Made by a program: the position numbers and the translations under genes
Notes under the pieces: model-generated
What the model was told of the DNA's origin: nothing
The model's database searches: none
The model's input: only the letters and a program-made list of their open reading frames with translations
Assembly: GCF_000301055.1 (NCBI RefSeq)
Contig: NZ_JH932300.1
Span: forward strand, 663,339-727,338
From: Falseniella ignava CCUG 37419
GTDB lineage: Bacteria > Bacillota > Bacilli > Lactobacillales > Aerococcaceae
Direction: 5' to 3'
Length of the DNA: 64,000 nt
Shown here: one piece after another, positions 17,172-61,135 of the stretch
Layout of the letters: every line of letters begins with the position of its first letter
Position numbering within the stretch: position 1 is the first letter of the stretch

Positions 17172-17213
17172 CTCAAATACAAATTCATTGAATATAGAGA
17201 GGAGAACATTTTT

Positions 17214-17435: not shown

Positions 17436-17551
17436 ATAAAACCGTTCTTTTGTGGAATATAAGTGGTTTTCTTATGTTCCGCAAAGGAATGGTACACCAA
17501 ACGAAGTGCGGTAGGGATTTTTGAATCTCTACAAAGAAAGGACGTGAATAT

Positions 17552-18049
17552 ATGGACGATATGCAAGTCTATATTGCGAATTTAGGCAAATACAATGAGG
17601 GCGAATTGGTCGGTGCGTGGTTTACCTTTCCCATTGACTTTGAGGAAGTCAAAGAGAAAATCGGCTTGAATGATGAATATGAGGAATACGCCATTCATGA
17701 CTACGAGTTACCCTTTACGGTTGACGAATACACTTCCATTGGCGAACTCAATCGACTATGGGAAATGGTATCGGAATTACCCGAAGAATTACAATCGGAG
17801 CTATCTGCTCTGCTCACTCATTTTTCAAGCATTGAAGAACTAAGCGAACATCAAGAGGATATTATCATTCATTCCGATTGTGATGATATGTATGACGTGG
17901 CACGCTACTACATTGAAGAAACGGGTGCTTTAGGCGAAGTACCAGCTAGTCTTCAAAACTATATTGATTATCAAGCCTATGGTCGGGATTTAGACCTTTC
18001 AGGAACGTTTATCTCAACCAATCATGGGATTTTTGAAATCGTCTATTAA
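17552..18049 (+). CDS. ardA: ArdA antirestriction protein (Tn916 Orf18)
   Basis: 165 residues, strongly acidic, with no cofactor motif. ArdA of Tn916 is a DNA mimic that blocks type I restriction enzymes, protecting the element on entry into a new host. Typical features here are the N-terminal VYIANLGKYNEGELVGAWF and the many Asp/Glu residues spread along the protein. GAAAGGACG precedes the ATG. Confidence 0.94.
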   Translation: MDDMQVYIANLGKYNEGELVGAWFTFPIDFEEVKEKIGLNDEYEEYAIHDYELPFTVDEYTSIGELNRLWEMVSELPEELQSELSALLTHFSSIEELSEHQEDIIIHSDCDDMYDVARYYIEETGALGEVPASLQNYIDYQAYGRDLDLSGTFISTNHGIFEIVY

Positions 18050-18137
18050 ATCTGTCGGTACATTACTACTGGCAGATTTTCTATTTTACGGGGTGGCTCA
18101 ATCAGCTACCCCTATTTTTTATGAAAGGATTGATTAC

Positions 18138-18530
18138 ATGAAGAAAATACGAAGCTATACCAGTATCTGGTCTGTGGAAAAGGTACTGTATTCTATCAAT
18201 GATTTTAGACTTCCGTTTCCCATAACCTTTACGCAAATGACATGGTTTGTCGTGTCACTCTTTGCAGTGATGATACTTGGCAACTTGCCCCCTCTTTCCA
18301 TGATAGAGGGAGCATTTCTCAAATACTTTGGGATTCCTGTGGCTTTCACATGGTTTATGTCTACAAAAACTTTTGATGGTAAAAAGCCTTATGGATTTTT
18401 GAAGTCTGTCATTGCTTATGCACTGCGACCAAAGCTGACCTATGCAGGAAAAAAAGTAACGCTTGGCAGAAACCAGCCACAAGAAGCCATTACAGCAGTT
18501 AGGAGTGAATTTTATGGCATATCCAATTAA
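18138..18530 (+). CDS. orf17: Tn916 Orf17, TcpE-type conjugation membrane protein
   Basis: 130 residues from the ATG at 18138, which has GAAAGGATTG upstream. An ATG at 18024 would add 38 residues but lies inside ardA without a convincing binding site. Two membrane helices (about 38-58 and 60-78) are followed by a basic cytosolic tail. TcpE-family proteins help assemble the mating channel with the VirB4-like ATPase, whose start codon lies inside the end of this gene. Confidence 0.87.
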   Translation: MKKIRSYTSIWSVEKVLYSINDFRLPFPITFTQMTWFVVSLFAVMILGNLPPLSMIEGAFLKYFGIPVAFTWFMSTKTFDGKKPYGFLKSVIAYALRPKLTYAGKKVTLGRNQPQEAITAVRSEFYGISN

Positions 18531-20961: not shown

Positions 20962-20963
20962 AT

Positions 20964-23141
20964 GTGAAACCATCAATAGTAAACAGAATAAAATCAAACT
21001 GGACGCTGAAACGTCTAGGTAAAGTGGCAATGACAGTGGCTTTCACACTTGTGATTGCCATTTTTCTTTTAGCCATGCTGGGAACGGTGGTTCAAGCTGC
21101 GGGCTTGGTAGATGATACGGTCAATGTGGCAAATGAATACAGCCGATACCCACTTGAAAACTATCAACTGGATTTTTATGTGGATAATAGCTGGGGCTGG
21201 CTTCCGTGGAACTGGTCGGACGGGATTGGAAAACAGGTCATGTATGGACTATATGCCATTACCAATTTTATTTGGACAATCAGTTTGTATGTTTCCAATG
21301 CGACAGGTTACTTAGTACAGGAAGCCTATTCCTTAGACTTCATTTCCGCTACAGCAGATTCCATTGGTAAGAATATGCAGACCTTAGCTGGTGTGAGTGC
21401 AAACGGATTTTCAACAGAGGGTTTCTATGTTGGATTCCTCTTACTCTTGATTTTGGTTCTTGGGGTTTATGTTGCCTATACGGGACTGATAAAGAGAGAA
21501 ACCACAAAGGCAATTCATGCCATTATGAATTTTGTGCTGGTGTTTATCCTATCGGCTTCCTTTATTGCCTACGCTCCCGACTACATTAAAAAAATCAATG
21601 ACTTTTCATCAGACATCAGTAATGCCAGTTTATCACTTGGCACGAAGATTGTCATGCCCCATTCCGATAGTCAAGGCAAGGACAGCGTGGACTTAATCAG
21701 AGATAGCCTGTTTTCCATACAGGTTCAGCAACCGTGGCTACTGCTTCAATACAACAGTTCAGACATTGAAAGTATCGGTATTGACCGTGTGGAAAGCCTG
21801 CTCTCCACCAGCCCAGATTCCAACAATGGCGAAGACAGAGAAAAAATTGTTGCGGAAGAAATTGAAGACAGAAGCAATACCAATCTAACCATTACAAAGA
21901 CCATTAACCGTTTAGGTACAGTCTTCTTCCTATTTGTCTTCAATATTGGGATTTCCATATTTGTATTCCTATTAACAGGAATCATGATTTTCTCGCAGGT
22001 ACTTTTTATCATCTATGCTATGTTTCTGCCTGTGAGCTTTATTTTAAGCATGATTCCATCATTTGATGGTATGTCAAAACGAGCCATAACAAAGCTCTTT
22101 AATACCATTTTGACACGAGCTGGAATCACATTGATTATTACGACAGCATTTAGTATTTCAACCATGCTCTATACCTTATCGGCTGGTTATCCGTTCTTTT
22201 TGATTGCTTTTCTACAGATTGTGACCTTTGCAGGAATCTACTTCAAGCTGGGCGATTTAATGAGTATGTTTTCTCTACAGAGTAACGATTCTCAAAGTGT
22301 GGGAAGTCGTGTGATGAGAAAACCTCGTATGCTTATGCACGCTCACATGCACCGTCTACAGCGGAAACTTGGACGTTCCATGACTACTCTAGGGGCTGGG
22401 TCTGCCATTGTTACAGGTAAAAAAGGACAGTCGGGTTCGGGGAGTTCTGCAAGGACACAAGCAGATCACTCCCGACCAGACGGAAAGGAAAAATCAACAC
22501 TTGGAAAACGTATCGGTCAAACCATCGGTACAGTAGCTGATACCAAAGACAGAATGGTAGACACTGCTAGTGGTTTGAAAGAACAGGTTAAAGATTTGCC
22601 GACCAATGCAAGATATGCAGTATATCAAGGAAAATCCAAAGTAAAAGAGAATGTCCGTGATTTAACCAGTAGTATTTCTCAAACCAAAGCGGACAGAGCC
22701 AGTGGACGCAAGGAACAGCAGGAACAAAGGCGAAAAACCATTGCGAAGCGTCGCTCTGAAATGGAACAGGTCAAACAGAAAAAACAGCCTGCTTCTTCTG
22801 TTCATGAAAGACCGACTACAAGACAAGAACAATATCATGATGAACAGACCTCAAAACAGTCTAATATTCAGACTTCATATAAGGAATCTCAACAAGCCAA
22901 ACAAGAGCGTCCAGCAGTTAAGTCCGATTTTTCAAGTCCAAAAGTGGAACGCCAAGGCAATACCGTTCAAGAAAAAACCGTTCAAAAGCCAGCAACTTCA
23001 ACCACTACAGCAGATAGAACTTCACAACGTCCAATCACAAAAGAACGTCCGTCTACTGTTCAAAGAGTACCACTACAAAATACAAGAAGTAGACCACCAA
23101 TCAAAACCGCCACCATTAAGAAAGTCGGTAAGAAACCATGA
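20964..23141 (+). CDS. orf15: Tn916 Orf15, VirB6-like channel membrane protein
   Basis: 725 residues from a GTG two bases past the orf16 stop. It has several membrane helices: one at about 18-43, a pair near 150-200, and a cluster between 310 and 430. The C-terminal 270 residues are highly polar, rich in Lys, Gln, Ser and Thr, and probably cytosolic. This layout matches TcpH/VirB6-like channel subunits. Its end overlaps the orf14 start by four bases. Confidence 0.9.
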   Translation: MKPSIVNRIKSNWTLKRLGKVAMTVAFTLVIAIFLLAMLGTVVQAAGLVDDTVNVANEYSRYPLENYQLDFYVDNSWGWLPWNWSDGIGKQVMYGLYAITNFIWTISLYVSNATGYLVQEAYSLDFISATADSIGKNMQTLAGVSANGFSTEGFYVGFLLLLILVLGVYVAYTGLIKRETTKAIHAIMNFVLVFILSASFIAYAPDYIKKINDFSSDISNASLSLGTKIVMPHSDSQGKDSVDLIRDSLFSIQVQQPWLLLQYNSSDIESIGIDRVESLLSTSPDSNNGEDREKIVAEEIEDRSNTNLTITKTINRLGTVFFLFVFNIGISIFVFLLTGIMIFSQVLFIIYAMFLPVSFILSMIPSFDGMSKRAITKLFNTILTRAGITLIITTAFSISTMLYTLSAGYPFFLIAFLQIVTFAGIYFKLGDLMSMFSLQSNDSQSVGSRVMRKPRMLMHAHMHRLQRKLGRSMTTLGAGSAIVTGKKGQSGSGSSARTQADHSRPDGKEKSTLGKRIGQTIGTVADTKDRMVDTASGLKEQVKDLPTNARYAVYQGKSKVKENVRDLTSSISQTKADRASGRKEQQEQRRKTIAKRRSEMEQVKQKKQPASSVHERPTTRQEQYHDEQTSKQSNIQTSYKESQQAKQERPAVKSDFSSPKVERQGNTVQEKTVQKPATSTTTADRTSQRPITKERPSTVQRVPLQNTRSRPPIKTATIKKVGKKP

Positions 23142-24139
23142 AGTTGAAAACTTTAGTGATTGGTGGTTCTGGATTATTCTTGATGGTCTTCTCACTGCTT
23201 CTGTTTGTTGCCATTTTATTTTCAGATGAACAGGACAGCGGAATTTCCAATATTCATTATGGAGGTGTGAATGTTTCCGCAGAAGTGCTGGCTCATAAGC
23301 CTATGGTAGAAAAATATGCCAAAGAATATGGCGTTGAAGAATATGTCAACATACTTCTTGCGATTATACAGGTGGAATCGGGCGGTACTGCGGAAGATGT
23401 TATGCAGTCCTCGGAATCCCTCGGTCTTCCACCTAATTCATTGAGTACAGAAGAATCCATTAAGCAAGGTGTGAAGTATTTCAGTGAATTATTAGCCAGT
23501 AGCGAAAGGCTCAGTGTAGATTTAGAATCGGTTATCCAGTCCTACAATTATGGTGGTGGTTTCTTAGGGTATGTGGCTAATCGTGGAAATAAATATACCT
23601 TTGAACTGGCTCAAAGTTTCTCAAAAGAGTATTCAGGTGGCGAAAAAGTGTCTTACCCCAATCCCATAGCCATACCTATCAATGGGGGCTGGCGATACAA
23701 CTATGGCAATATGTTTTATGTGCAACTGGTAACGCAGTATCTTGTCACAACAGAGTTTGATGATGATACGGTACAAGCCATCATGGACGAAGCACTGAAA
23801 TATGAGGGCTGGCGATACGTTTACGGTGGAGCTTCCCCGACTACTTCTTTTGATTGTAGCGGACTGACACAATGGACGTATGGAAAAGCTGGAATTAACT
23901 TACCACGAACCGCACAACAGCAATATGATGTGACCCAGCATATCCCACTATCGGAAGCACAAGCTGGCGATTTGGTTTTCTTTCATTCTACCTATAACGC
24001 TGGCTCTTATATTACTCATGTTGGGATATACCTTGGCAATAACCGTATGTTTCATGCAGGCGACCCAATCGGTTATGCCGACTTAACAAGCCCCTACTGG
24101 CAACAGCATTTAGTGGGAGCAGGACGAATCAAACAATGA
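23138..24139 (+). CDS. orf14: Tn916 Orf14, two-domain cell-wall hydrolase
   Basis: 333 residues. A membrane anchor (about 7-30) is followed by a lysozyme-like transglycosylase domain (ILLAIIQVESGG, glutamate about residue 79) and a C-terminal NlpC/P60 peptidase domain with Cys in TSFDCSGL and His in THVGIYLG. It opens the peptidoglycan locally so that the mating channel can cross the wall. It overlaps orf15 and runs into orf13. Confidence 0.93.
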   Translation: MKLKTLVIGGSGLFLMVFSLLLFVAILFSDEQDSGISNIHYGGVNVSAEVLAHKPMVEKYAKEYGVEEYVNILLAIIQVESGGTAEDVMQSSESLGLPPNSLSTEESIKQGVKYFSELLASSERLSVDLESVIQSYNYGGGFLGYVANRGNKYTFELAQSFSKEYSGGEKVSYPNPIAIPINGGWRYNYGNMFYVQLVTQYLVTTEFDDDTVQAIMDEALKYEGWRYVYGGASPTTSFDCSGLTQWTYGKAGINLPRTAQQQYDVTQHIPLSEAQAGDLVFFHSTYNAGSYITHVGIYLGNNRMFHAGDPIGYADLTSPYWQQHLVGAGRIKQ

Positions 24140-24153
24140 GAAAGGAAGATTTA

Positions 24154-25071
24154 ATGATGAAATTTAGAAAAAATCAGAATAAAGAAAAACAGATACCAAA
24201 GGAAAAGAAACCTCGTGTCTACTATAAGGTCAATCCTCATAAAAAGGTTGTGATTGCCTTGTGGGTACTTTTAGGGCTTAGTTTCAGCTTTGCGATATTC
24301 AAGCACTTTACAGCTATAGATACTCATACTATTCACGAAACAACTATCATAGAAAAGGAATACGTTGATACTCATCATGTAGAAAATTTTGTAGAGAACT
24401 TTGCGAAAGTCTACTATTCATGGGAGCAATCCGATAAGTCCATTGATAATCGAATGGAAAGTCTAAAAGGCTATCTGACAGATGAACTTCAAGCTCTCAA
24501 TGTTGATACAGTACGCAAAGATATTCCTGTATCGTCTTCTGTAAGAGGATTTCAGATATGGACGGTAGAGCCAACTGGCGACAATGAGTTTAATGTAACC
24601 TACAGTGTAGACCAGCTCATTACAGAGGGAGAAAATACAAAGACCGTCCACTCTGCTTATATAGTGAGTGTCTATGTAGATGGTTCTGGAAATATGGTAC
24701 TGGTTAAGAATCCGACCATTACCAACATACCTAAGAAATCAAGTTATAAACCAAAAGCCATTGAAAGTGAGGGGACGGTTGATTCCATTACAACCAATGA
24801 AATCAATGAATTTTTAACGACGTTCTTCAAGCTCTATCCTACAGCGACAGCCAGTGAACTTTCCTACTATGTGAATGACGGGATATTAAAACCAATCGGA
24901 AAAGAGTACATCTTTCAAGAACTGGTAAATCCTATTCACAATCGTAAGGATAATCAAGTCACGGTATCGCTGACAGTGGAGTATATCGACCAGCAGACCA
25001 AAGCAACGCAGGTATCTCAATTTGATTTGGTACTTGAAAAGAACGGGAGTAATTGGAAGATTATAGAATAA
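24154..25071 (+). CDS. orf13: Tn916 Orf13, TcpC-like conjugation protein
   Basis: 305 residues from the ATG at 24154, which has AAAGGAAG at good distance; an ATG at 24136 overlapping the orf14 stop is a weaker alternative. A basic N-terminus and one membrane helix (about 32-50) precede two NTF2-like outer domains, the TcpC plan. TcpC interacts with the wall hydrolase and VirB4-like ATPase in related systems. Last gene of the conjugation block before tet(M). Confidence 0.88.
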   Translation: MMKFRKNQNKEKQIPKEKKPRVYYKVNPHKKVVIALWVLLGLSFSFAIFKHFTAIDTHTIHETTIIEKEYVDTHHVENFVENFAKVYYSWEQSDKSIDNRMESLKGYLTDELQALNVDTVRKDIPVSSSVRGFQIWTVEPTGDNEFNVTYSVDQLITEGENTKTVHSAYIVSVYVDGSGNMVLVKNPTITNIPKKSSYKPKAIESEGTVDSITTNEINEFLTTFFKLYPTATASELSYYVNDGILKPIGKEYIFQELVNPIHNRKDNQVTVSLTVEYIDQQTKATQVSQFDLVLEKNGSNWKIIE

Positions 25072-25140
25072 CAAATATTGGTACATTATTACAGCTATTT
25101 TGTAATCACGTACTCTCTTTGATAAAAAATTGGAGATTCC

Positions 25141-25169
25141 TTTACAAATATGCTCTTACGTGCTATTAT
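25141..25169 (+). promoter_or_regulatory. tet(M) promoter
   Basis: TTTACA (25141-25146), a 17-base spacer and TATTAT (25164-25169). Transcripts begin upstream of the leader peptides and the attenuator. Confidence 0.8.
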
Positions 25170-25200
25170 TTAAGTATCTATTTAAAAGGAGTTAATAAAT

Positions 25201-25224
25201 ATGCGGCAAGGTATTCTTAAATAA
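25201..25224 (+). CDS. Seven-residue leader peptide upstream of tet(M)
   Basis: MRQGILK with AAAAGGAG upstream. Its codons form one arm of a 13-bp inverted repeat (25208-25220 with 25297-25309), so ribosomes translating it would open that stem. Coding status is inferred from the binding site and placement only. Confidence 0.45.
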   Translation: MRQGILK

Positions 25225-25309
25225 ACTGTCAATTTGATAGTGGGAACAAATAATTGGATGTCCTTTTTTAGGAGGGCTTAGTTTTTTGTACCCAGTTTAA
25301 GAATACCTT
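25208..25309 (+). promoter_or_regulatory. Long-range stem in the tet(M) leader RNA
   Basis: AAGGTATTCTTAA pairs perfectly with TTAAGAATACCTT, enclosing about 76 bases. Part of the known tet(M) attenuation region. Confidence 0.65.
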
Positions 25310-25345
25310 TATCATGTGATTCTAAAGTATCCGGAGAATATCTGT

Positions 25346-25432
25346 ATGCTTTGTATGCCTATGGTTATGCATAAAAATCCCAGTGATAAGAGTATTTATC
25401 ACTGGGTTTTTTATGCCCTTTTGGGTTTTTGA
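25346..25432 (+). CDS. orf12: Tn916 Orf12, tet(M) leader peptide
   Basis: 28 residues beginning MLCMPMVMHKNPSDK. In Tn916, tetracycline changes ribosome movement over this ORF, which prevents terminator formation and lets transcription reach tet(M). The terminator hairpin at 25379-25412 lies inside the ORF, as this model needs. It ends 15 bases before the tet(M) ATG. Confidence 0.85.
   Translation: MLCMPMVMHKNPSDKSIYHWVFYALLGF
25379..25412 (+). terminator. tet(M) attenuator
   Basis: Perfect 10-bp stem (CCCAGTGATA with TATCACTGGG), 8-base loop, then T6. It lies inside orf12 and stops transcription without drug. Confidence 0.88.
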
Positions 25433-25447
25433 ATGGAGGAAAATCAC

Positions 25448-27367
25448 ATGAAAATTATTAATATTGGAGTTTTAGCTCATGTTGATGCAGGAAAAACTAC
25501 CTTAACAGAAAGCTTATTATATAACAGTGGAGCGATTACAGAATTAGGAAGCGTGGACAAAGGTACAACGAGGACGGATAATACGCTTTTAGAACGTCAG
25601 AGAGGAATTACAATTCAGACAGGAATAACCTCTTTTCAGTGGGAAAATACGAAGGTGAACATCATAGACACGCCAGGACATATGGATTTCTTAGCAGAAG
25701 TATATCGTTCATTATCAGTTTTAGATGGGGCAATTCTACTGATTTCTGCAAAAGATGGCGTACAAGCACAAACTCGTATATTATTTCATGCACTTAGGAA
25801 AATGGGGATTCCCACAATCTTTTTTATCAATAAGATTGACCAAAATGGAATTGATTTATCAACGGTTTATCAGGATATTAAAGAGAAACTTTCTGCCGAA
25901 ATTGTAATCAAACAGAAGGTAGAACTGTATCCTAATATGTGTGTGACGAACTTTACCGAATCTGAACAATGGGATACGGTAATAGAGGGAAACGATGACC
26001 TTTTAGAGAAATATATGTCCGGTAAATCATTAGAAGCATTGGAACTCGAACAAGAGGAAAGCATAAGATTTCAGAATTGTTCTCTGTTCCCTCTTTATCA
26101 TGGAAGTGCAAAAAGTAATATAGGGATTGATAACCTTATAGAAGTTATTACTAATAAATTTTATTCATCAACACATCGAGGTCCGTCTGAACTTTGCGGA
26201 AATGTTTTCAAAATTGAATATACAAAAAAAAGACAACGTCTTGCATATATACGCCTTTATAGTGGAGTACTACATTTACGAGATTCGGTTAGAGTATCAG
26301 AAAAAGAAAAAATAAAAGTTACAGAAATGTATACTTCAATAAATGGTGAATTATGTAAGATTGATAGAGCTTATTCTGGAGAAATTGTTATTTTGCAAAA
26401 TGAGTTTTTGAAGTTAAATAGTGTTCTTGGAGATACAAAACTATTGCCACAGAGAAAAAAGATTGAAAATCCGCACCCTCTACTACAAACAACTGTTGAA
26501 CCGAGTAAACCTGAACAGAGAGAAATGTTGCTTGATGCCCTTTTGGAAATCTCAGATAGTGATCCGCTTCTACGATATTACGTGGATTCTACGACACATG
26601 AAATTATACTTTCTTTCTTAGGGAAAGTACAAATGGAAGTGATTAGTGCACTGTTGCAAGAAAAGTATCATGTGGAGATAGAACTAAAAGAGCCTACAGT
26701 CATTTATATGGAGAGACCGTTAAAAAATGCAGAATATACCATTCACATCGAAGTGCCGCCAAATCCTTTCTGGGCTTCCATTGGTTTATCTGTATCACCG
26801 CTTCCGTTGGGAAGTGGAATGCAGTATGAGAGCTCGGTTTCTCTTGGATACTTAAATCAATCATTTCAAAATGCAGTTATGGAAGGGATACGCTATGGTT
26901 GCGAACAAGGATTATATGGTTGGAATGTGACGGATTGTAAAATCTGTTTTAAGTACGGTTTATACTATAGCCCTGTTAGTACTCCAGCAGATTTTCGGAT
27001 GCTTGCTCCTATTGTATTGGAACAAGTCTTAAAAAAAGCTGGAACAGAATTGTTAGAGCCATATCTTAGTTTTAAAATTTATGCGCCACAGGAATATCTT
27101 TCACGAGCATACAACGATGCTCCTAAATATTGTGCGAACATCGTAGACACTCAATTGAAAAATAATGAGGTCATTCTTAGTGGAGAAATCCCTGCTCGGT
27201 GTATTCAAGAATATCGTAGTGATTTAACTTTCTTTACAAATGGACGTAGTGTTTGTTTAACAGAGTTAAAAGGGTACCATGTTACTACCGGTGAACCTGT
27301 TTGCCAGCCCCGTCGTCCAAATAGTCGGATAGATAAAGTACGATATATGTTCAATAAAATAACTTAG
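25448..27367 (+). CDS. tet(M): Tet(M) ribosomal protection protein (tetracycline resistance)
   Basis: 639 residues from the ATG at 25448 behind GGAGGA, the exact Tet(M) length; an in-frame ATG five codons earlier lacks a binding site. It is an EF-G-like GTPase with P-loop AHVDAGKTT, switch [10 protein letters not shown], and NKID near residue 128. The C-terminal domain IV/V removes tetracycline from the ribosome in a GTP-dependent way. Controlled by the attenuator leader upstream. Confidence 0.97.
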
Positions 27368-27464
27368 TGTATTTTATGTTGTTATATAAATATGGTTTCT
27401 TGTTAAATAAGATGAAATATTTTTTAATAAAGATTTGAATTAAAGTGTAAAGGAGGAGATAGTT

Positions 27465-27653
27465 ATTATAAACTACAAGTGGATATTGTGTCCTGTATGT
27501 GGAAATAAAACACGATTAAAGATAAGGGAAGATACTGAATTAAAAAAATTCCCCCTCTATTGTCCGAAATGCAGACAAGAAAATTTAATTGAAATAAAGC
27601 AGTTCAAAGTAACTGTGATTACAGAGCCAGACGCAAAGACGCAGAGCCGATAA
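27465..27653 (+). CDS. orf6: Tn916 Orf6, cysteine-rich KTR-type protein
   Basis: 62 residues with two CPxC knuckles (CPVCGNKTR and CPKCRQEN), a likely zinc ribbon, and a basic interior. No ATG, GTG or TTG fits in frame upstream. The best start is ATT at 27465, six bases after GGAGGAG. Its last codons and stop form part of a long hairpin. Function unknown; co-transcribed with tet(M). Confidence 0.75.
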   Translation: MINYKWILCPVCGNKTRLKIREDTELKKFPLYCPKCRQENLIEIKQFKVTVITEPDAKTQSR

Positions 27654-27687
27654 AATGAGATTAATACAATCTCATTTTATCGGCTCT
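27643..27687. terminator. Twenty-bp perfect hairpin between orf6 and orf9
   Basis: A perfect 20-bp stem with a 5-base loop overlaps the orf6 stop codon. It lies between convergent orf6 and orf9. The T-tract is short, so it may be leaky in the plus direction, fitting the known tetracycline-induced read-through toward orf7-orf8. Confidence 0.7.
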
Positions 27688-27712
27688 TTCCGTTATGTAT
27701 GGATTCTTTTAA

Positions 27713-28066
27713 TTAGTCTTCGATGTTTCTTGCTTCGTTGATACCGCTGGCTAAAGATTCCATTAAGGATAGTTCTTTGTCTGTAAAGCTATCCATGTAT
27801 TTCTCTATCTGTAATCGTCGGGTGCTTTTTACCAAGTTATTAGCAGGTAAGAAAAATTCATCAACGGAAACATGAAGTAACGATACAAGGTCATAAAGAA
27901 CTTGTATGCTGGGGTGTTGCCCTTTATTTTCAATATTAGTTAAGTACCGTGGGTCAATTTCAATCAATGCTCCCACTTGTTCACGAGTTAAACCTCGTTT
28001 CAATCGAGCTTCTTTAATGGCTAAACCAAAGGCTCTAAAATCATATTTATCTTCTTTTTTACGCAT
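27713..28066 (-). CDS. orf9: Tn916 Orf9, XRE-type repressor
   Basis: 117 residues. A helix-turn-helix spans about residues 14-65 ([22 protein letters not shown]). In Tn916 the gene opposes the tet(M)-to-orf7 direction and its product is thought to repress orf7 and orf8; read-through from tet(M) antisense to it lowers its level. The start has GAGGTGG upstream. Confidence 0.9.
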
Positions 28067-28270
28067 AGTAGACCACCTCTATACATTTTATTGTTCCTAC
28101 TGAATTAAAAACAGGTATAGAAAAACGTGTTATATGGTTTATAGGTTTATATTTAATAAAAAGCACTACTAAACGCCAATAAAAAAAACCGTTATATGGT
28201 AGTGCTATTTACGCTGTTAAAATATTGTATATTACTTCCAAATGGCGGTTTGTTGGAGGTCAACGTCGCC

Positions 28271-28342
28271 ATGAAGTACATCATATACAATAAATTTCCT
28301 TACATTGGGTTCTTGTCAAAAAAAGTCGTCTATCTGCAATAG
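28271..28342 (+). CDS. orf10: Small ORF at the Tn916 orf10 position
   Basis: 23 residues, MKYIIYNKFPYIGFLSKK then VVYLQ. GGAGG lies 13 bases upstream, somewhat far. Position between orf9 and orf7 fits Tn916 orf10. Expression and function are uncertain. Confidence 0.4.
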   Translation: MKYIIYNKFPYIGFLSKKVVYLQ

Positions 28343-28393
28343 ATAAGTACGTCCACCAATGTGGTTTTATAAATCATATAGATAGAATAACAG

Positions 28394-28435
28394 AAGCATG
28401 TAAACAGAGAAATAAATCTGTTTATATGCTTTTTT
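28394..28435 (+). terminator. Terminator upstream of orf7
   Basis: AAGCATGTAAACAGA pairs with TCTGTTTATATGCTT (one G-T pair) around an 8-base loop, followed by T6. It would limit read-through from tet(M) into orf7. Confidence 0.78.
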
Positions 28436-28570
28436 GGCTATTCAGAACTTTTTTACAAAGTTTATTTATCAGTAATGCAACAAATCCCCCTTTCACATTG
28501 GGACTAAGAGTGAAAGGAGATAAACGAGCAAGGCTCACTTCCTTTCCTAGACAGAAAGGGGGTGAGAAAC

Positions 28571-28993
28571 ATGAAACCATCTTCTTTTCAGACCACAATA
28601 GAAAATCAGTTTGACTATATCTGTAAACGTGCTATGGAAGACGAGCGAAAGAATTATATGCTTTATCTTTCAAGGATTGCAAAGCGTGAGGTGTCCTTTT
28701 CGGATGTTGGCGATTATCTTGTTAGCCAGTTTGCGACAACAGATAACTATTCAACTGACTTTCAGATTTTTACACTCAATGGGTTATCAGTAGGCGTTGA
28801 AAATGATTTGTTGAGTGAAGCATTACGTGAGTTGCCAGACAAGAAACGTGAAATTCTACTGCTGTTTTACTTTATGGACATGAGCGATTCAGAAATTGCA
28901 GACCTGTTGAAATTGAACCGTTCTACTGTCTATCGGCATAGAACCAGTGGACTAGCCTTAATTAAAAAGTTTATGGAGGAATTTGAAGAATGA
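28571..28993 (+). CDS. orf7: Tn916 Orf7, sigma-70-like regulator
   Basis: 140 residues from the ATG at 28571 behind AAAGGGGGTGAG. The C-terminal part is a sigma region-4-like helix-turn-helix (MDMSDSEIADLLKLNRSTVYRHR). In Tn916 Orf7 and Orf8 promote transcription through xis and int and, in the circle, on into the transfer genes. Its stop overlaps the orf8 start (ATGA). Confidence 0.9.
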   Translation: MKPSSFQTTIENQFDYICKRAMEDERKNYMLYLSRIAKREVSFSDVGDYLVSQFATTDNYSTDFQIFTLNGLSVGVENDLLSEALRELPDKKREILLLFYFMDMSDSEIADLLKLNRSTVYRHRTSGLALIKKFMEEFEE

Positions 28994-29220
28994 AAACACA
29001 ATATCCTATGATTCCCTTTCCTCTCATTGTAAAGGCAACAGATGGCGATACCGAAGCGATTAACCAGATTCTACATCATTACAGAGGGTACATAACGAAG
29101 CGTTCCCTACGACTTATGAAAGATGAATATGGCAATCAAAGTATGGTCGTTGATGAAGTCTTACGTGGAAGAATGGAAACCAGACTGATTACAAAGATTT
29201 TGTCATTTGAAATTAAGTAA
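28990..29220 (+). CDS. orf8: Tn916 Orf8, helix-turn-helix regulator
   Basis: 76 residues overlapping orf7 by four bases, so probably translationally coupled. The N-terminal IPFPLIVKATDGDTEAIN is the usual start of this conjugative-element family, related to sigma-factor region 2. It acts with Orf7 in activating transfer. Confidence 0.88.
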   Translation: MKTQYPMIPFPLIVKATDGDTEAINQILHHYRGYITKRSLRLMKDEYGNQSMVVDEVLRGRMETRLITKILSFEIK

Positions 29221-29238
29221 TATCCTCTCTCCTTTCGT

Positions 29239-29267
29239 GGAAGCGTGCTAAACCATTCCACGCTTCC
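29239..29267 (+). repeat. Nine-bp inverted repeat after orf8
   Basis: GGAAGCGTG and CACGCTTCC around an 11-base spacer, 18 bases past the orf8 stop. No T-tract follows, so it may be an RNA stability or weak termination element rather than a full terminator. Confidence 0.5.
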
Positions 29268-29359
29268 CGAACAGGGAGGTTTGTTATTCCACCAAAGCAT
29301 ATTGAGCTTTCAATGTGTTTTGATAGGCTAACGAGCCATTGTTCTTTGAAAACTGAATA

Positions 29360-29670
29360 AAAGTAATCGAATACGTTTCGATAAGAAAAGAGCCAACGGA
29401 ACTAACCGCCATGACCTATCTTATAAAGATAGCGAGCGATTCATGTTAGTGATCCGAGAAGCAATCTTTAGCAGGATTGCCTGCAACGACATTCTTATCG
29501 TGATAATGATACTCCCATACAGTCAATAGTCCGAGCGTGATAAAACCGTCGCAGGCAATGAGTATGGCTACATGAGAACCATGCAGGGGTGGAACTCCCG
29601 TGAGCTTTGCTAAAGCTGTTCGATTGCTGGTAAAACAACTTTTATGAAATCCAAATAAGTGATTTGGAAA
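29360..29670 (+). ncRNA. Candidate structured RNA upstream of xis
   Basis: A non-coding stretch of about 460 bases separates orf8 from xis. This part holds many perfect stems: CTATCTT/AAGATAG (29416-29432), GCAATC/GATTGC (29461-29480), TTATCgtGATAA (29494-29505), ATTGCCTGC/GCAGGCAAT (29476-29484 with 29551-29559), ATACTC/GAGTAT (29509-29514 with 29560-29565), AGCTTT/AAAGCT (29603-29617) and TCCAAAT/ATTTGGA (29650-29668). Several are mutually exclusive or crossing, suggesting a switch or pseudoknot. The last stem abuts the xis binding site. Function is not known to me. Confidence 0.4.
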
Positions 29671-29680
29671 GGAGGATTTT

Positions 29681-29884
29681 ATGAAGCAGACTGACATTCC
29701 TATTTGGGAACGTTATACCCTAACCATTGAAGAAGCGTCAAAATATTTTCGTATTGGCGAAAACAAGCTACGACGCTTGGCAGAGGAAAATAAAAATGCA
29801 AATTGGCTGATTATGAATGGCAATCGTATTCAGATTAAACGAAAACAATTTGAAAAAATTATAGATACATTGGACGCAATCTAG
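29681..29884 (+). CDS. xis: Excisionase Xis of Tn916
   Basis: 67 residues, recognised as Tn916 Xis. A winged-helix DNA-binding motif spans [20 protein letters not shown]. It bends DNA near the ends and directs Int toward excision. AAAGGAGG precedes the ATG. It lies 81 bases before int. Confidence 0.95.
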
Positions 29885-29965
29885 CGTCGCCAAAGGGTCT
29901 TGTATATGATAAAATAGTATTAAGTCGTATCAAGGCTCTTTCCATAAAGGAAAGGAGCAAATGCC

Positions 29966-31183
29966 ATGTCAGAAAAAAGACGTGACAATAAAGGTCGAAT
30001 CTTAAAGACTGGAGAGAGCCAACGAAAAGACGGAAGATACTTATACAAATATATAGATTCATTTGGAGAACCGCAATTTGTTTACTCGTGGAAACTTGTG
30101 GCTACAGACCGAGTACCAGCAGGAAAGCGTGATTGTATCTCACTTAGAGAGAAAATCGCAGAGTTACAGAAAGACATTCATGATGGTATTGATGTTGTAG
30201 GAAAGAAAATGACACTCTGCCAGCTTTACGCAAAACAGAACGCTCAAAGACCAAAGGTTAGAAAAAACACTGAAACTGGACGCAAATATCTTATGGATAT
30301 TTTGAAGAAAGACAAGTTAGGTGTAAGAAGTATTGACAGTATTAAGCCATCAGACGCTAAAGAATGGGCTATTAGAATGAGTGAAAATGGTTATGCTTAT
30401 CAAACCATCAATAACTACAAACGTTCTTTAAAGGCTTCATTCTATATTGCTATACAAGATGATTGTGTTCGGAAGAATCCATTTGACTTTCAACTGAAAG
30501 CAGTTCTTGATGATGATACTGTCCCTAAGACCGTACTAACAGAAGAACAGGAAGAAAAACTGTTAGCCTTTGCAAAAGCTGATAAAACCTACAGCAAAAA
30601 TTATGATGAAATTCTGATACTCTTAAAAACAGGTCTTCGTATTTCAGAGTTTGGTGGTTTGACACTTCCAGATTTAGATTTTGAGAATCGTCTTGTCAAT
30701 ATAGACCATCAGCTATTGAGAGATACTGAAATTGGGTACTACATTGAAACACCAAAGACCAAAAGTGGCGAACGTCAAGTTCCTATGGTTGAAGAAGCCT
30801 ATCAAGCATTTAAGCGAGTGTTAGCGAATCGAAAGAATGATAAGCGTGTTGAGATTGATGGATATAGTGATTTCCTCTTTCTTAATAGAAAGAACTATCC
30901 AAAAGTGGCAAGTGATTACAACGGCATGATGAAAGGTCTTGTTAAGAAATACAATAAGTATAACGAGGATAAATTGCCACACATCACTCCACATAGTTTG
31001 CGACATACATTCTGTACCAACTATGCAAATGCAGGAATGAATCCAAAGGCATTACAGTACATTATGGGACATGCTAATATAGCCATGACGCTGAACTATT
31101 ACGCACATGCAACATTCGATTCTGCAATGGCAGAAATGAAACGCTTGAATAAAGAGAAGCAACAGGAGCGTCTTGTTGCTTAG
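29966..31183 (+). CDS. int: Tyrosine integrase Int of Tn916
   Basis: 405 residues, the Tn916 Int length. An N-terminal arm-binding domain (about 1-75) is followed by a core-binding domain and the catalytic domain with Arg in TGLRISEFGG, the HSLRHTF box, His in IMGHANI and the nucleophile Tyr in TLNYYAHAT. It excises and inserts the element and binds near oriT. AAAGGAG precedes the ATG. Confidence 0.97.
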   Translation: MSEKRRDNKGRILKTGESQRKDGRYLYKYIDSFGEPQFVYSWKLVATDRVPAGKRDCISLREKIAELQKDIHDGIDVVGKKMTLCQLYAKQNAQRPKVRKNTETGRKYLMDILKKDKLGVRSIDSIKPSDAKEWAIRMSENGYAYQTINNYKRSLKASFYIAIQDDCVRKNPFDFQLKAVLDDDTVPKTVLTEEQEEKLLAFAKADKTYSKNYDEILILLKTGLRISEFGGLTLPDLDFENRLVNIDHQLLRDTEIGYYIETPKTKSGERQVPMVEEAYQAFKRVLANRKNDKRVEIDGYSDFLFLNRKNYPKVASDYNGMMKGLVKKYNKYNEDKLPHITPHSLRHTFCTNYANAGMNPKALQYIMGHANIAMTLNYYAHATFDSAMAEMKRLNKEKQQERLVA

Positions 31184-55527: not shown

Positions 55528-56826
55528 TTATGGGTATAGGCGATTCAATAGACGTGGGAATGGTGAAGTTTCTCGAATATGTTCAATACCACTTAACCAA
55601 GCTACACAACGCTCTAATCCCATTCCAAAACCACTATGGACTACTGCACCATATTTATTCGTATCTAAGTACCAAGCGTAAGCGTCTAAGTCTAAATTGA
55701 AATCAATAATATTTTGTTTCATAATTTCGTAATTATCTTCACGCTGCGATCCGCCAATAATTTCACCATATCCCTCAGGTGCAATCATGTCTGCACATAG
55801 AACAGTGCGTGGGTCTTCCGGATTTACCTTCATATAGAATGGCTTAATTGATTTTGGATAATTTACGATAAAGATGGGTTGTTCGTATTGGCTTGCGATA
55901 AACGTTTCATGCGGTGATCCAAAGTCATCACCCCACTCAATATCATCAAAACCATTATTATTTAATAAAGTAATCGCATCGGTATATGAAATTCGTGGAT
56001 ATGGTGTTTTAGTATATTTTTCAAGTAAGGATACATCACGGCCTAAACGCTCTAAGGCTTGAGGACAATGATCGATGACATTACGCACTAAGTATGCTAC
56101 GTATTCTTCTTGAACTTTTAAACTTTGCTCATGATCTGTATGGGCCATCTCAGGTTCCATCATCCAGAACTCAATTAAATGGCGACGTGTCTTAGATTTT
56201 TCCGCACGGAAAGTCGGTCCGAAAGAAAATACTTTGCCAAAAGCCATTGCTGCAGCTTCTAGATAAAGTTGACCACTTTGTGATAAGTAAGCTTCTTCAT
56301 CAAAATATTCTGTATGGAATAATTCAGTCGTTCCTTCTGGTGCACTGCCTGTTAAAATCGGTGGATCAATCTTAATAAATCCACGGTCATTAAAGAATTC
56401 AAACGTTGCGCGAATAATTTCGTTACGGATTAACATAATCGCATGTTGTCTTGACGTTCTTAACCATAAGTGACGGTGATCCATTAAGAAATCAGTTCCA
56501 TGTTCTTTCGGTGTAATCGGATAATCGTGACTTTCACCTAATACTTTAATATCTTTAACTAATAATTCGTACCCCAGACTTGAACGGGTATCCTCTTGAA
56601 CAACCCCAGTTAATTCGACACTACTTTCTTGAGAAAGATGTTTTGTAATGTCAAAAACTTCTTCACTTACATCTGATTTTAAAACGACACCTTGGAAGTA
56701 AGCTGTTCCGTCTCTTAATTGAATAAAAGCGATTTTACCACTGTTTCTTGTATTTGTAACCCAAGCTTTTACGGTCACAGTTTGATCAACGTAATCTTTA
56801 GCTTGATTCATTGTAATGATATCCAT
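55528..56826 (-). CDS. asnS: Asparaginyl-tRNA synthetase
   Basis: 432 residues. OB-fold anticodon-binding domain (about 1-100), then class II catalytic core with motif 2 [19 protein letters not shown] and motif 3 [13 protein letters not shown]. It charges tRNA-Asn. Gene order ypmB-asnS-dnaD matches Bacillus. Confidence 0.97.
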
Positions 56827-56841
56827 CTTTATTCCTCTTTC

Positions 56842-57318
56842 TTATAAATTCGCAATCGTTTGAATCCATTCCCCATCGGTCGCATCCAAATAATAATATG
56901 ACATAATACCAGATTGATCTTTAAAAGTAACTTCCCAAACAGGTCGATTATCCATTTTTCCTAGACGAGCCTGCATAACCTTATCAATCTCATTATCATA
57001 TTTTGTAATTCCAATGGCATCTTCGCGTGAGATAATATCTTCGTTCGTATAATAATCCGTATCGCCCCCATCTTGTTTAATAATGGCATACCGTTCTACT
57101 CCTTCATTATCGGTAAAGAACATAGAAAAATACGATTCTTTCACCGTAACCATATTAAATTGATGGACTTGTTCAATCGGATAATCAACTTCAATAATAT
57201 CCTTTGCTTCCACTTCAGCTTGTGCTAATCTGCTGACACTACTTGCATAAATGAAAATAAAAAACATCATTAATGACAAGAGTATCATGGATGTAACAGG
57301 AATCCATTTTTGACTCAA
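56842..57318 (-). CDS. ypmB: YpmB-like membrane-anchored protein (PepSY-type)
   Basis: 158 residues from a TTG at 57318 that sits nine bases after GGAGGG; an upstream ATG at 57360 would start before that site. One N-terminal membrane helix (about 8-28) is followed by an extracellular domain with two PepSY-like repeats ending in VTFKDQSGIMSYYYLDATDG. The role is unknown, but the gene is conserved between dinG and asnS. Confidence 0.82.
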   Translation of the reverse strand: MSQKWIPVTSMILLSLMMFFIFIYASSVSRLAQAEVEAKDIIEVDYPIEQVHQFNMVTVKESYFSMFFTDNEGVERYAIIKQDGGDTDYYTNEDIISREDAIGITKYDNEIDKVMQARLGKMDNRPVWEVTFKDQSGIMSYYYLDATDGEWIQTIANL

Positions 57319-57390
57319 AATGATTGCCCTCCTTTTAGTATAACAACATAATAATACCATAAACTGGCAGAAGATAAACCTATTATTCCT

Positions 57391-59901
57391 CTATTCAATT
57401 TCAAATTGAGCTAATTTATTTAACTGGGCAAAGACTGTTTGGCTGTACTCTTTAGTCATAATTCGTTGATCCCATAAATAAATAGCATACTCAGGGTAGT
57501 CTTCATTGAACCGAATCAATAATCTTTTCATATTTAGGATCATTTGAGGTAGTTGTACCGCTTTGAAATTATCATAATTTTGATTTGGGTGTGGTGCATT
57601 AAATAGCGATATTTGACCTTGTAACCAAACATGATTCATTGCTACAAATGGAAGATTAAATAAGATAATTACACCCTCATGATTGAACTGCTGCCATTCT
57701 TCACTTAAGAATCCTTTGCGCGTTAGAATAATAATATTTTTATCTTGCTCGATCATTCGCCGACGAATTTTATGTCGATTACTTGTAACGGACTGAGCTT
57801 GGATTAAATAGGAATCCAGAGAAGGTCGATCCATCAATATATGATATAAAGATTTCGCTTGTTGTTTATTACTAACAATAATGATGATTGTTGCATGATC
57901 CATAAAATGCTTACTCATATATTCTGCTAAGTCTTCCATTCGTTCTATATCTTGCACTCTTGCTAAGTATTCGATCGGAAGTGAGACACGCACCCCTGGT
58001 GGATAGAATGAGAGCGGAAGCTTCAAGTAATCGAAACCATCGAGATCAACCCAGCGATGGTATCCCCATTGTTGTTGATAATCTTGATATCCCCCCAAAC
58101 TAATTAACAATACTTGGTTGAATTGGTTCAAATATTTTAAATAATTAGACTCGAGAATGAGAGGTTTCTTTAGTAAAACTAAACGATAAAACTCATTTCG
58201 AATCCGAGTTGCTGTTAAATACAACAACTGATTAGAATCCTTCATGATAAAACCAGTTAATCGTTGTTGCCATTGATTAATCACTTCGTTGGCATCTTGA
58301 TCTATTATTGAAAGACTATCAAGCTGAATAAGCTCATTAACGATTCGGACCATCCTCTGAACTGTCTGATGAATTTTTTCTGCCAAGTGATCTGTAGCAT
58401 CAATTGTTAAGCTCACTGATTCTTGCTGTTTCGAACTTGAATCGAATTGCTTTAAAACTCTAATAAGCGAATCTGTCAATTGATATCCAGATTGGATTAA
58501 TTGATCTAATAATTGATAACTATAATCTAGCCCCGCTTCTGAAAACAAATGGAGCCAACGAGACCACAAAGTTAAACCTTCACTGATGGGTAATTTCAGT
58601 TCTGAATAATCAGAAATCGAATTAAAATAGTCGAAAGCATCTAAAATAATTACAGAACGATCCATAAATGATTCATATAAATCTGATGGGCTATTAAATA
58701 AATAATGAAAATCAACGGGTGTCATCATAATAATGTCTGCTTTTTTGGCTTTTTCAATCGCATCGTAGTACGAATTAGAAAAAATTGAGGATTCACTCTT
58801 ATGGTAACGTTGTAACACACCAACGATATCCAGTTCTTGATTCAACGTTGTAAGATCTAATATGGTTCGTGTCGTTTGCCAATAGTAGGTAGCAGCTACA
58901 ATCGTGAGATCATGTGAATTAATTTTGATTTGATCTAACAGATGTACCAACTTTATTAATTGTTCTCGACAAAGATATCTTCGTGGATGTCTTAAATGGA
59001 CAACATTACATTGCTGGTGACACGCAATCATTTTAATTTTTAATTGGGTTGATTCTTGTTCTGTCACGATGATTGTTGAGTGATGTTCCAGCATTCGTTC
59101 AATCAATGTCATCATTGTAGCTGTGTCGATGGGTCGAATTGGATCTTCTAAAATGGAATGCGGATTTTGATTCCATTGATTCAGAATATAATCAACTTTC
59201 GATGACGACAACGCATCATGATGAATAATATCTAAAGATTCTGTTGGCTCTAACTCAGGCAGTTGCGTAACTTCTAAATTTGGTTTAATGATAAAGTGCT
59301 CAGGTTCACTCACGAAAAAACTGGTACCAAAATCAATTTTTTGGGTAATTGATTGTAATATTGATCTTTCAGTAGGCTCAAGGTTAAGACATCTTTGCGC
59401 AAGCTCTGTTATTAAATACCGTGTCATTCTTGCATCTTCAATGGCTTGATGAGCATCTGTGAATGGAATCCCTAATTCCATCGATAATTCCATTAAGTTA
59501 AATCCCTTAGCTTCAGGTAAAAATATTTTAGACAATTTTACGGTATCGATTGATTTCGGATTAAACGTTAAATGATATTTCGCAAATTCTTCTTGCAATA
59601 CTTTTAAATCAAATGCTGTATTATGAGCCACAAAATAACAGTCGTACAGTAAGTCATACCATTCTTTAGCAATCTCTTCAAAGGATGGACATCCTGCTAC
59701 ATCTTGGTCCGTAATTCCTGTTAGCTTTTGAATGGGTTCAGGAATCGATCGTCCAGGGTTTATGGTTTGGGAACGTTCTTCAACGACCTGATTGTTTTCA
59801 ATAATTAAAGCTGCAAGCTGAATAATTTCATCTCCATCTTCAATATTGGGGCCGGTTGCCTCTAAATCAACAATCGCAATTCGTGGATATTTATTTGACA
59901 T
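57391..59901 (-). CDS. dinG: DinG-type exonuclease with degenerate helicase domain
   Basis: 836 residues. The N-terminal DnaQ-like exonuclease is intact: Asp12 and Glu14 in VDLEATG, Asp98 in HNTAFDL, His151 and Asp156 in DAHQAIEDA. The rest matches the DinG helicase in length and order, but its motifs are gone. Walker A is replaced by EQESTQLKI (281-289), the DEAH box by LDAFD (420-424), and the QGxGRlIR motif by NMKRLLIR. No GKT or GKS occurs anywhere. It is probably an active 3'-5' exonuclease without ATPase activity. It overlaps cca by 11 bases. Confidence 0.87.
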   Translation of the reverse strand: MSNKYPRIAIVDLEATGPNIEDGDEIIQLAALIIENNQVVEERSQTINPGRSIPEPIQKLTGITDQDVAGCPSFEEIAKEWYDLLYDCYFVAHNTAFDLKVLQEEFAKYHLTFNPKSIDTVKLSKIFLPEAKGFNLMELSMELGIPFTDAHQAIEDARMTRYLITELAQRCLNLEPTERSILQSITQKIDFGTSFFVSEPEHFIIKPNLEVTQLPELEPTESLDIIHHDALSSSKVDYILNQWNQNPHSILEDPIRPIDTATMMTLIERMLEHHSTIIVTEQESTQLKIKMIACHQQCNVVHLRHPRRYLCREQLIKLVHLLDQIKINSHDLTIVAATYYWQTTRTILDLTTLNQELDIVGVLQRYHKSESSIFSNSYYDAIEKAKKADIIMMTPVDFHYLFNSPSDLYESFMDRSVIILDAFDYFNSISDYSELKLPISEGLTLWSRWLHLFSEAGLDYSYQLLDQLIQSGYQLTDSLIRVLKQFDSSSKQQESVSLTIDATDHLAEKIHQTVQRMVRIVNELIQLDSLSIIDQDANEVINQWQQRLTGFIMKDSNQLLYLTATRIRNEFYRLVLLKKPLILESNYLKYLNQFNQVLLISLGGYQDYQQQWGYHRWVDLDGFDYLKLPLSFYPPGVRVSLPIEYLARVQDIERMEDLAEYMSKHFMDHATIIIIVSNKQQAKSLYHILMDRPSLDSYLIQAQSVTSNRHKIRRRMIEQDKNIIILTRKGFLSEEWQQFNHEGVIILFNLPFVAMNHVWLQGQISLFNAPHPNQNYDNFKAVQLPQMILNMKRLLIRFNEDYPEYAIYLWDQRIMTKEYSQTVFAQLNKLAQFEIE

Positions 59902-61135
59902 TCATATCACCTACTACTGAATAATGTTGTCTTACATAATCTTCAAGTACTCGGCTTTTATTTTCAAGTTGTCTATTAATAACGCGCATTTCAAGGTTGG
60001 CTAATATCTCGCCAATCATCGGTCCTCCACGATTCAAATTAAACATGTCCATCAAACGCTTACCGTCGATTGCTAATTCTTTACGTGTTTGGATGGGCAA
60101 TTGCTCTTTTTGTAAAAGATAATTTTCTACACTTAGATGATGTGCATCAAGATAATCTTGAACTTGTCGAATCACACCCGTATCAAGCGTATAGATTGCC
60201 ATTGCAGTCACTTGGTTCTTACGTATTAAATCTAAAAGTTCACGAATTTGAACTACTTGACGAATAAAATCATTACTATGTGTCCAATCTTTCAAATAGC
60301 GCATCGTCTCCTGTTCACTATATCCCAATAACTGTGTAATAAAAGCCCAGATGAGTTCGCGGTATTGAGATCTTGATGCTTGGAGGGGTTTTACTTTTTC
60401 AATCAGTCGATCGAGTAATCGTTTTACATTGACTTGATCGAATCCAGGTAATTGGGCTGATAAGTGTGTTGTTTCTAGCAAATGCGCAGTTTGCGTAAAA
60501 TAATCCCCTTCTAAAAACTTAATAAACTCAATCCGAATTCGTTCGATCGCAATATGCGCTAAACTTGGACTCAATGTTTCAATGGCTTGCAACGTATTAT
60601 CTTCAATCTTAAATCCTAATTGACTGGCAAAACGGATAGCACGCATCATTCGAAGGGCATCTTCATTAAATCGTTCATAAGGTTGCCCCACACAACGAAT
60701 TATTTTTTGCTGAAGATCATCTAATCCACCATGATAATCATAGAGTTTACCCCGTACATCAAATGCTAATGCATTAATCGTGAAGTCACGTCTTAAGGTG
60801 TCTTCTTCCAAACTTCGGATAAAAGTTACTTCATCCGGACGACGGTGATCCGTATACGTTGATTCGCTTCGAAAGGTAGTAACTTCATACAATTCACCAT
60901 GATAGACGATTCCAATCGTCCCATGTTCGATTCCTACGTCAACGGTATGCGAAAATATTTCTGCAATCTCTTGCGGAAACGCACTGGTCGCAATATCAAT
61001 ATCATTAATTGGACGATTTAACAATGTATCCCGCACACAGCCACCAATAAAATAAGCCTCATAACCATGAGACTCAATTTGTTGAATAAGTGGCAATGCA
61101 CTTTGAAATAAAGGATGATTTAGCGTTAATTTCAC
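59891..61135 (-). CDS. cca: CCA-adding tRNA nucleotidyltransferase
   Basis: 414 residues. The head domain has GGCVRDTLLNRPINDIDIAT with the DxD catalytic pair, then RRDFTINALAFD and the template EDALRMMRAIRFA. The C-terminal body and tail are helical. It builds or repairs the CCA end of tRNA. It overlaps the upstream ypiB by four bases. Confidence 0.96.
   Translation of the reverse strand: MKLTLNHPLFQSALPLIQQIESHGYEAYFIGGCVRDTLLNRPINDIDIATSAFPQEIAEIFSHTVDVGIEHGTIGIVYHGELYEVTTFRSESTYTDHRRPDEVTFIRSLEEDTLRRDFTINALAFDVRGKLYDYHGGLDDLQQKIIRCVGQPYERFNEDALRMMRAIRFASQLGFKIEDNTLQAIETLSPSLAHIAIERIRIEFIKFLEGDYFTQTAHLLETTHLSAQLPGFDQVNVKRLLDRLIEKVKPLQASRSQYRELIWAFITQLLGYSEQETMRYLKDWTHSNDFIRQVVQIRELLDLIRKNQVTAMAIYTLDTGVIRQVQDYLDAHHLSVENYLLQKEQLPIQTRKELAIDGKRLMDMFNLNRGGPMIGEILANLEMRVINRQLENKSRVLEDYVRQHYSVVGDMNVK

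Follow-up and report, generated by a model that had tools for sequence, protein, structure and literature searches.

A DinG protein with an intact exonuclease and a lost helicase motor in the Aerococcaceae: a probable ATP-independent 3′-5′ exonuclease

Introduction

The closest described relatives of the protein reported here are the DinG proteins of Staphylococcus aureus, Bacillus subtilis and Listeria monocytogenes, and the purpose of the motor in such exonuclease-bearing DinGs (ExoDinGs) is disputed, the reports on the S. aureus protein standing against those on Walker-site mutants from the other two species. S. aureus DinG (SaDinG; PDB 8ZEF and 9II8) is stated to have been reported formerly as a protein without helicase activity and later as a helicase required for crosslink resistance (PMC12345164). 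Helicase-dead SaDinG did not restore that resistance (PMC12345164), and the motor therefore matters in S. aureus. SaDinG carries a P-loop, a DEAH box and a QGLGR motif and unwinds DNA at the expense of ATP. Its structure with single-stranded DNA shows stacking of F804, F823 and Y864 against bases or sugars and polar contacts from R858; substitution of any of the four by alanine abolished unwinding, and the binding constant was raised more than twofold by F804A and F823A and moderately by R858A and Y864A, which is to say that DNA binding was weakened (PMC12345164).

The reports on the other two proteins describe 3′-5′ exonucleases on a DinG fold whose Walker-site mutants are still exonucleases. 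The Walker A mutant K290A of B. subtilis DinG degrades linear single-stranded DNA, degradation by the wild-type protein is neither stimulated nor inhibited by its ATPase, and the enzyme also degrades R-loops (PMC12525004). Listeria DinG E465A retains prominent 3′-5′ exonuclease activity, and the exonuclease acts on unprocessed rRNA (PMC12774634). The pExoDinGs (PMC11981726) share with the protein described below the condition that one of two fused catalytic domains is dead, in their case by prediction, and they are its mirror image: the domain predicted to be dead is the nuclease, while the helicase part survives. The reverse arrangement, a dead motor joined to a live nuclease, is not described in the sections of that paper used here, and we found no earlier description of a motor-dead ExoDinG among the open-licence papers listed, as judged from titles and abstract openings.

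Here we describe a protein of Falseniella ignava CCUG 37419 that is an ExoDinG by descent, by its nuclease and by its predicted fold, and that fails the motor-motif definition of a helicase. Loss of the motor is real and extends through a lineage of the Aerococcaceae.

Results

The gene lies at 57391..59901 on the reverse strand of the window, by which we mean the whole 64,000-nucleotide stretch of the F. ignava genome that was analysed; it encodes 836 residues and shares 11 bases with the 3′ end of cca. Its N-terminal DEDDh 3′-5′ exonuclease domain (59380..59883, reverse strand; about residues 7-174) contains D12, E14, H93, D98, H151 and D156, and in a Pfam protein scan the RNase_T exonuclease family is matched across residues 10-162 (4.8e-29). 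A first-pass annotation had called this site intact, and D12, E14, D98, H151 and D156 do align with SaDinG D10, E12, D95, H149 and D154; in a search of solved structures with the window protein, the first sequence match was the exonuclease part of SaDinG. By this domain and its catalytic residues the protein belongs with the ExoDinGs. The rest of the chain scores poorly: in the Pfam protein scan Helicase_C_2 reached 22.0 bits against a cut-off of 25.3 and DEAD 15.1 against 26, while a frame-based genome search placed Helicase_C_2 just at its cut-off, at 25.3 bits. The NCBIfam models TIGR01407 (dinG_rel) and NF005981 (PRK08074.1) gave 193.9 and 188.4 bits, below their curated cut-offs of 547.7 and 789. 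The six cysteines of the window protein (71, 88, 171, 294, 298 and 311, three of them within the exonuclease part) do not make up the four-cysteine [4Fe-4S] signature of FeS-type DinG and XPD; the ExoDinGs of Bacillales and Lactobacillales likewise lack cluster cysteines, according to PMC11981726.

Motifs I, II, V and VI of an SF2 motor are absent from the window protein, although a helicase-like region of about 650 residues is kept, as had been proposed. Positions follow SaDinG numbering, which was fixed by aligning a Staphylococcus lugdunensis DinG with 8zef_A without gaps over 1-892. The string EQESTQLKI, which the first-pass annotation had placed at Walker A, aligns instead with motif Ia (SaDinG STNTKLLQ, 304-311); the true P-loop position is further upstream, at residues 251-264 (59110..59151, reverse strand; approximately LEDPIRPIDTATMM), and the P-loop is lost there all the same. 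The other two motif calls of that annotation agree with the alignment: LDAFD stands at the DEAH position of motif II (residues 420-424; 58630..58644, reverse strand), and motif VI is indeed gone, with RLLIR, as the alignment shows, in place of QGxGR (residues 793-797; 57511..57525, reverse strand). The window protein contains no GK[ST] string.

We searched 76 genomes from 21 genera of the Aerococcaceae and sorted their DinG proteins into three classes by reading the open reading frames. The window-like form, here called type A, occurs in 29 genomes of 14 genera, other degenerate forms in six genomes of three genera (g10, g14 and g19), and motor-intact DinG in 41 genomes of four genera; among the last we count G066, in which the frame is broken by an N in a draft assembly and the motifs are visible in two frames. 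Type-A frames are 828-858 residues long in 28 of 29 cases, the exception being G060 (767 residues, from a genome that is 77% complete); no internal stops were reported in type-A frames, and the frames of g14 have 725-813 residues. A search of 60 relatives, the F. ignava genome included, returned full-length matches in 22 genomes, all Aerococcaceae, and in the other genomes of that set the DinG match was confined to the exonuclease part or little more; in one search for relatives, the best 80 of 568 were kept. The motif loss is common to every genome with the window form and recurs, in other shapes, in the six further degenerate ones, so it reflects neither chance nor sequencing error; a sequencing error or strain-specific mutation in F. 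ignava is ruled out by the 29 genomes, and no close relative with intact motifs was found.

Of 295 genomes in the order, 273 have Helicase_C_2 (PF13307) above its cut-off. Beyond the Aerococcaceae, the same search gave no PF13307 match at E ≤ 0.001 in G039, G040, G207 and G255 and a weak one (E 1.3e-4) in G272; a separate search of G040 gave hits only in a frame of 1460 residues, PolC by its length, and in one of 228 residues. Replacement of the lost motor by a second DinG-type helicase was considered and rejected: the 22 type-A genomes that lie within the 60 searched have no Helicase_C_2 match (E ≤ 0.001) besides DinG itself, the remaining seven being partly covered, and the same search was positive in 10 of 14 control genomes, including E. 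coli, B. subtilis and Lactococcus.

To describe what has been lost and kept we used a canonical set of 62 ExoDinGs (40 from Aerococcaceae, 16 from other families of the order and six from Bacillales, with G066 and G039 excluded) and the 35 motor-less proteins of the family, that is, the 29 of type A, with G060 among them, and the six other degenerate ones. Thirty-two positions of the helicase part are at least 90% conserved in the canonical alignment. Ten are ATPase-motif positions (G279, G281, K282, D448, E449, E785, G786, Q837, G840 and R841), which by their place in the alignment belong to motifs I, II, V and VI. None of the ten is kept throughout the motor-less proteins. The best preserved is D448, in 12 of 35; K282 survives in three, E449 in one, and R841 in one, which is the window protein itself; G279 and G281 of the P-loop, G786 of motif V and G840 of motif VI are found in none. 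Nor does any of the 35 contain an aligned P-loop or QxxGR, so that no alternative P-loop offers itself; the two GK[ST] strings among them, at residue 544 in G020 and residue 534 in G004, lie far from the P-loop position. The DEDDh residues and H90 (window H93) are kept in all 35.

Six of the 32 positions are kept in every motor-less protein: P803, F804, F823, D856, R858 and Y864, corresponding to P751, F752, F779, D811, R813 and Y819 of the window protein. In the window they lie on the reverse strand within a retained LPF (residues 750-752; 57646..57654), at F779 (57565..57567) and in the stretch holding D811, R813 and Y819 (57445..57471). L802 is kept in 34 of 35. Four of the six, F804, F823, R858 and Y864, are the residues with which SaDinG grips single-stranded DNA, and the other two adjoin them. 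All four of the ssDNA-contact positions among the 32 are thus retained, as against two of the 28 others (Fisher p = 4e-4, in a test that takes positions as independent, which is a simplification). A fifth contact on motor domain 2 (MD2), K801, falls outside the 32, since canonical proteins alternate between R and K there; one or other of these residues is found in 61 of 62 canonical proteins, 15 of 29 of type A and all six other degenerate ones, and the window protein has N. Among the possible contacts on motor domain 1 (MD1), K336 alone shows good conservation across the canonical set (55 of 62); K or R stands there in 17 of 29 type-A proteins, R in that of the window. The remaining ones (K338, K385, K389, H428 and H431) vary in canonical proteins too and therefore decide nothing. 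G377 and E381, present in most type-A proteins, are missing from the window protein.

DinG motors have decayed elsewhere in the order, outside the family, and these cases serve as a natural control. G207 (L254) and G255 (L253) keep a GKT P-loop, have lost DEAH, LPF, F823 and QxxGR, and are shorter at the C terminus; in G272 (L255) the arginine of DxR is gone along with the motifs, LPF and F823; and G039 (L256) has a shortened DinG with a frame of only 702 residues. LPF and F823 are lost in all four, and retention of the six positions is therefore not automatic when a DinG motor decays, with the qualification that the control is small (four genomes, three genera) and that the proteins of G207, G255 and G039, being shorter at the C terminus, are aligned there with less certainty.

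The dead-motor part is under purifying selection about as strong as that on working motors. Pairwise Nei-Gojobori counts, made separately for the two parts of the protein, gave dN/dS values for the helicase-like part of 0.092-0.135 in seven type-A pairs (one further pair was saturated) and 0.063-0.214 in seven canonical pairs (two were saturated), and for the exonuclease part of 0.025-0.082 in type A and 0.040-0.115 in canonical proteins; the pairs are not independent, since some share a genome. Three type-A pairs with dS well below 1 (0.30, 0.37 and 0.13) gave 0.093, 0.123 and 0.135. With the loss fixed and selection of this strength, the earlier proposal that the region is maintained for something other than ATP hydrolysis is supported. 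Unusually fast evolution of the dead-motor part was also considered and hardly applies: at PolC identities of 0.55-0.65, mean identity of the helicase part is 0.19 in type A (50 pairs) against 0.22 in canonical proteins (16 pairs), and 0.15 in the other degenerate proteins (six pairs).

The fold of the window protein was predicted with AlphaFold2, without templates, from the protein and 42 relatives (a 43-row alignment of the window protein, L068 and 41 of 56 eligible canonical loci). The model has a pLDDT of 81.5 and a pTM of 0.78, and its top Foldseek matches are SaDinG chains, 9ii8 (E 1.7e-36) and 8zef (E 6.8e-36), followed by E. coli DinG, CasDinG and XPD chains. Structural alignment matched 770 residues of 9ii8 (Z 27.9, rmsd 5.0) and 771 of 8zef (Z 27.6, rmsd 4.7), each at 17% identity; the input alignment is mostly canonical ExoDinG and may pull the model toward the SaDinG fold. 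An MD1-Arch-pFeS-MD2 fold is thus predicted from a match to SaDinG along the whole chain rather than sub-domain by sub-domain. Domain order, the DEDDh site and the four MD2 contacts are likewise common to the two proteins.

In a DinG tree obtained by a quick search (68 of 99 aligned rows, motif columns and G060 removed), the 28 type-A rows form one clade (SH-aLRT 100), as do all 34 motor-less rows, type A and the six degenerate proteins together (SH-aLRT 98), in a topology with several long branches and one warning of long branches meeting. The window protein is nested among ExoDinGs. Type A is likewise one clade (100) in a quick tree of PolC from 30 genomes, which places g10 and g19 beside the motor-intact genus g9 (94) and g14 apart, from which parsimony counts three losses of the motor; an AU test did not reject a single motor-less clade (p = 0.305).

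The gene neighbourhood points to the same descent. Upstream of dinG lies cca, for the CCA tRNA nucleotidyltransferase (59891..61135, reverse strand), and downstream a TseB-like gene (56842..57360, reverse strand; NCBIfam TseB 36 bits, cut-off 200). The next gene downstream (55528..56826, reverse strand) is, by its position and by synteny with Bacillus, a putative asnS-like gene. Both immediate neighbours are present at all 29 type-A loci. At canonical loci of the family the TseB-like gene follows in 39 of 41, and at 16 of 41 cca is seen upstream within the 206-1556 bases of flank that were covered. The pairing of dinG with the TseB-like gene is very stable, without an obvious shared function.

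Several other features of the window and genome were recorded. What looks like a conjugative element of the Tn916 type (14403-31183) encodes an FtsK-like ATPase, a Rep_trans protein, an AAA_10 protein, an EF-G-like protein (25433-27367), which may confer tetracycline resistance by ribosome protection, and an integrase whose DNA-binding domain is of the tn916 type (29966-31183). A large serine peptidase frame (2-4408) runs off the window edge; it is nearest the SGO_0316/SGO_0317 family of LPXTG-anchored peptidases, below the family cut-off. Elsewhere in the genome (C2:736216-739656; L222:717-4160) a protein of 1147 residues joins an SNF2-type helicase to a C-terminal DEDDh exonuclease domain. 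Its best PADLOC models are DpdE and DrmD; among the matches listed from the 76 family genomes no other covers both parts, and with the best relatives the alignment ends near residue 944, before the exonuclease is reached.

Discussion

Loss of the ATP-consuming parts, together with retention of the cutting site and of the residues that grip single strands, suggests that the window protein is probably an ATP-independent 3′-5′ exonuclease descended from an ExoDinG, its ATPase lost throughout the clade and its former motor serving as a guide for single strands. We base this proposal on the sequences, on the predicted model and on analogy with the DinG proteins already described. The ancestor would have been a DEDDh exonuclease fused to an XPD/DinG-type helicase. 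On the simplest reading, the work for which DinG is selected in the Aerococcaceae would have become purely nucleolytic, freeing the ATPase from constraint, and the strand grip of MD2 would have been retained for its use in presenting the 3′ strand to the nuclease. Both RecA-like domains, the Arch and the pseudo-FeS region are predicted still to form the DinG channel. Motor domain 2 would carry a single strand, of DNA or, as in Listeria, of RNA, against which F752, F779 and Y819 stack while R813 holds it; from there the 3′ end would pass passively into the DEDDh site. Such an enzyme should trim free 3′ single strands, halt at duplex and be indifferent to ATP. The nuclease activity, the guidance of the strand and the insensitivity to ATP are what we infer from residues and fold; the six kept residues could serve folding instead. 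The wild-type proteins of B. subtilis and Listeria differ in keeping their motor motifs; what was done to them by mutation of the Walker site has here occurred naturally and become fixed in a clade.

The nucleic acid need not be DNA. A shift of substrate, in which the protein would be an exoribonuclease for quality control of rRNA or R-loops and the former motor would recognise structured RNA, is a possibility that we take seriously, if without expecting it. The Listeria and B. subtilis reports cited above give it its footing, since Listeria DinG removes unprocessed rRNA with an exonuclease that does not need the DEAH box (PMC12774634) and B. subtilis DinG degrades R-loops (PMC12525004); however, nothing in sequence separates DNA from RNA. 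An RNA substrate is compatible with the ATP-independent exonuclease that we favour, differing from it in what is cut, and our confidence in the one therefore overlaps with that in the other.

The first-pass annotation had suggested DNA binding or scaffolding as the retained role. The kept ssDNA-contact positions and their neighbours favour binding of DNA (or RNA) over pure scaffolding, and we consider it improbable that the helicase part serves as a scaffold for binding proteins such as RecA, PolA or ribosome-assembly factors, its own contacts with nucleic acid being incidental. In favour of a scaffold, type A does have conserved positions of its own: in window numbering P257, at the lost P-loop position, and E356, at the position of SaDinG K385, each occur in 24 of 29 type-A proteins and in none of the 62 canonical ones, and T816 in 26 of 29 against 11 of 62. 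The six universal positions, however, are ssDNA contacts and their neighbours and outline no new patch.

We find it very unlikely that the helicase part is decaying neutrally, on its way out while the exonuclease alone is selected. Its dN/dS in type A does exceed that of the exonuclease part, but canonical proteins show the same difference, and although shortened frames exist in g14 and, in another family, in G039, the near-uniform length of type-A frames, the lack of reported internal stops, a dN/dS like that of canonical motors and six positions invariant in 35 of 35 proteins all argue against decay. An unconventional ATPase that binds or hydrolyses nucleotide through non-canonical residues is also very unlikely, for although the model predicts both RecA-like domains to be intact and type A has its proline at the former P-loop, motifs I, II, V and VI have been lost together and the few GK[ST] strings are in the wrong place.

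We suggest, tentatively and as something that may well not hold, that the Aerococcaceae made an XPD-type helicase into a passive, ATP-independent guide or processivity clamp up to three times (in the ancestor of type A, in g10 with g19, and in g14), the ATPase motifs being lost and the same six MD2 residues kept on each occasion. The low scores of the window protein also carry a warning for annotation, in that general family models place its helicase part near or below their cut-offs.

If the reading as a passive guide is right, nature has performed a separation-of-function experiment, and the job for which ExoDinG is selected in the Aerococcaceae needs no motor. A clade in which the ATPase is gone while nuclease site and strand grip persist makes the disputed question of what the motor is for testable with natural proteins, and it shows which residues an XPD-type fold requires in order to hold a strand, as distinct from moving along it.
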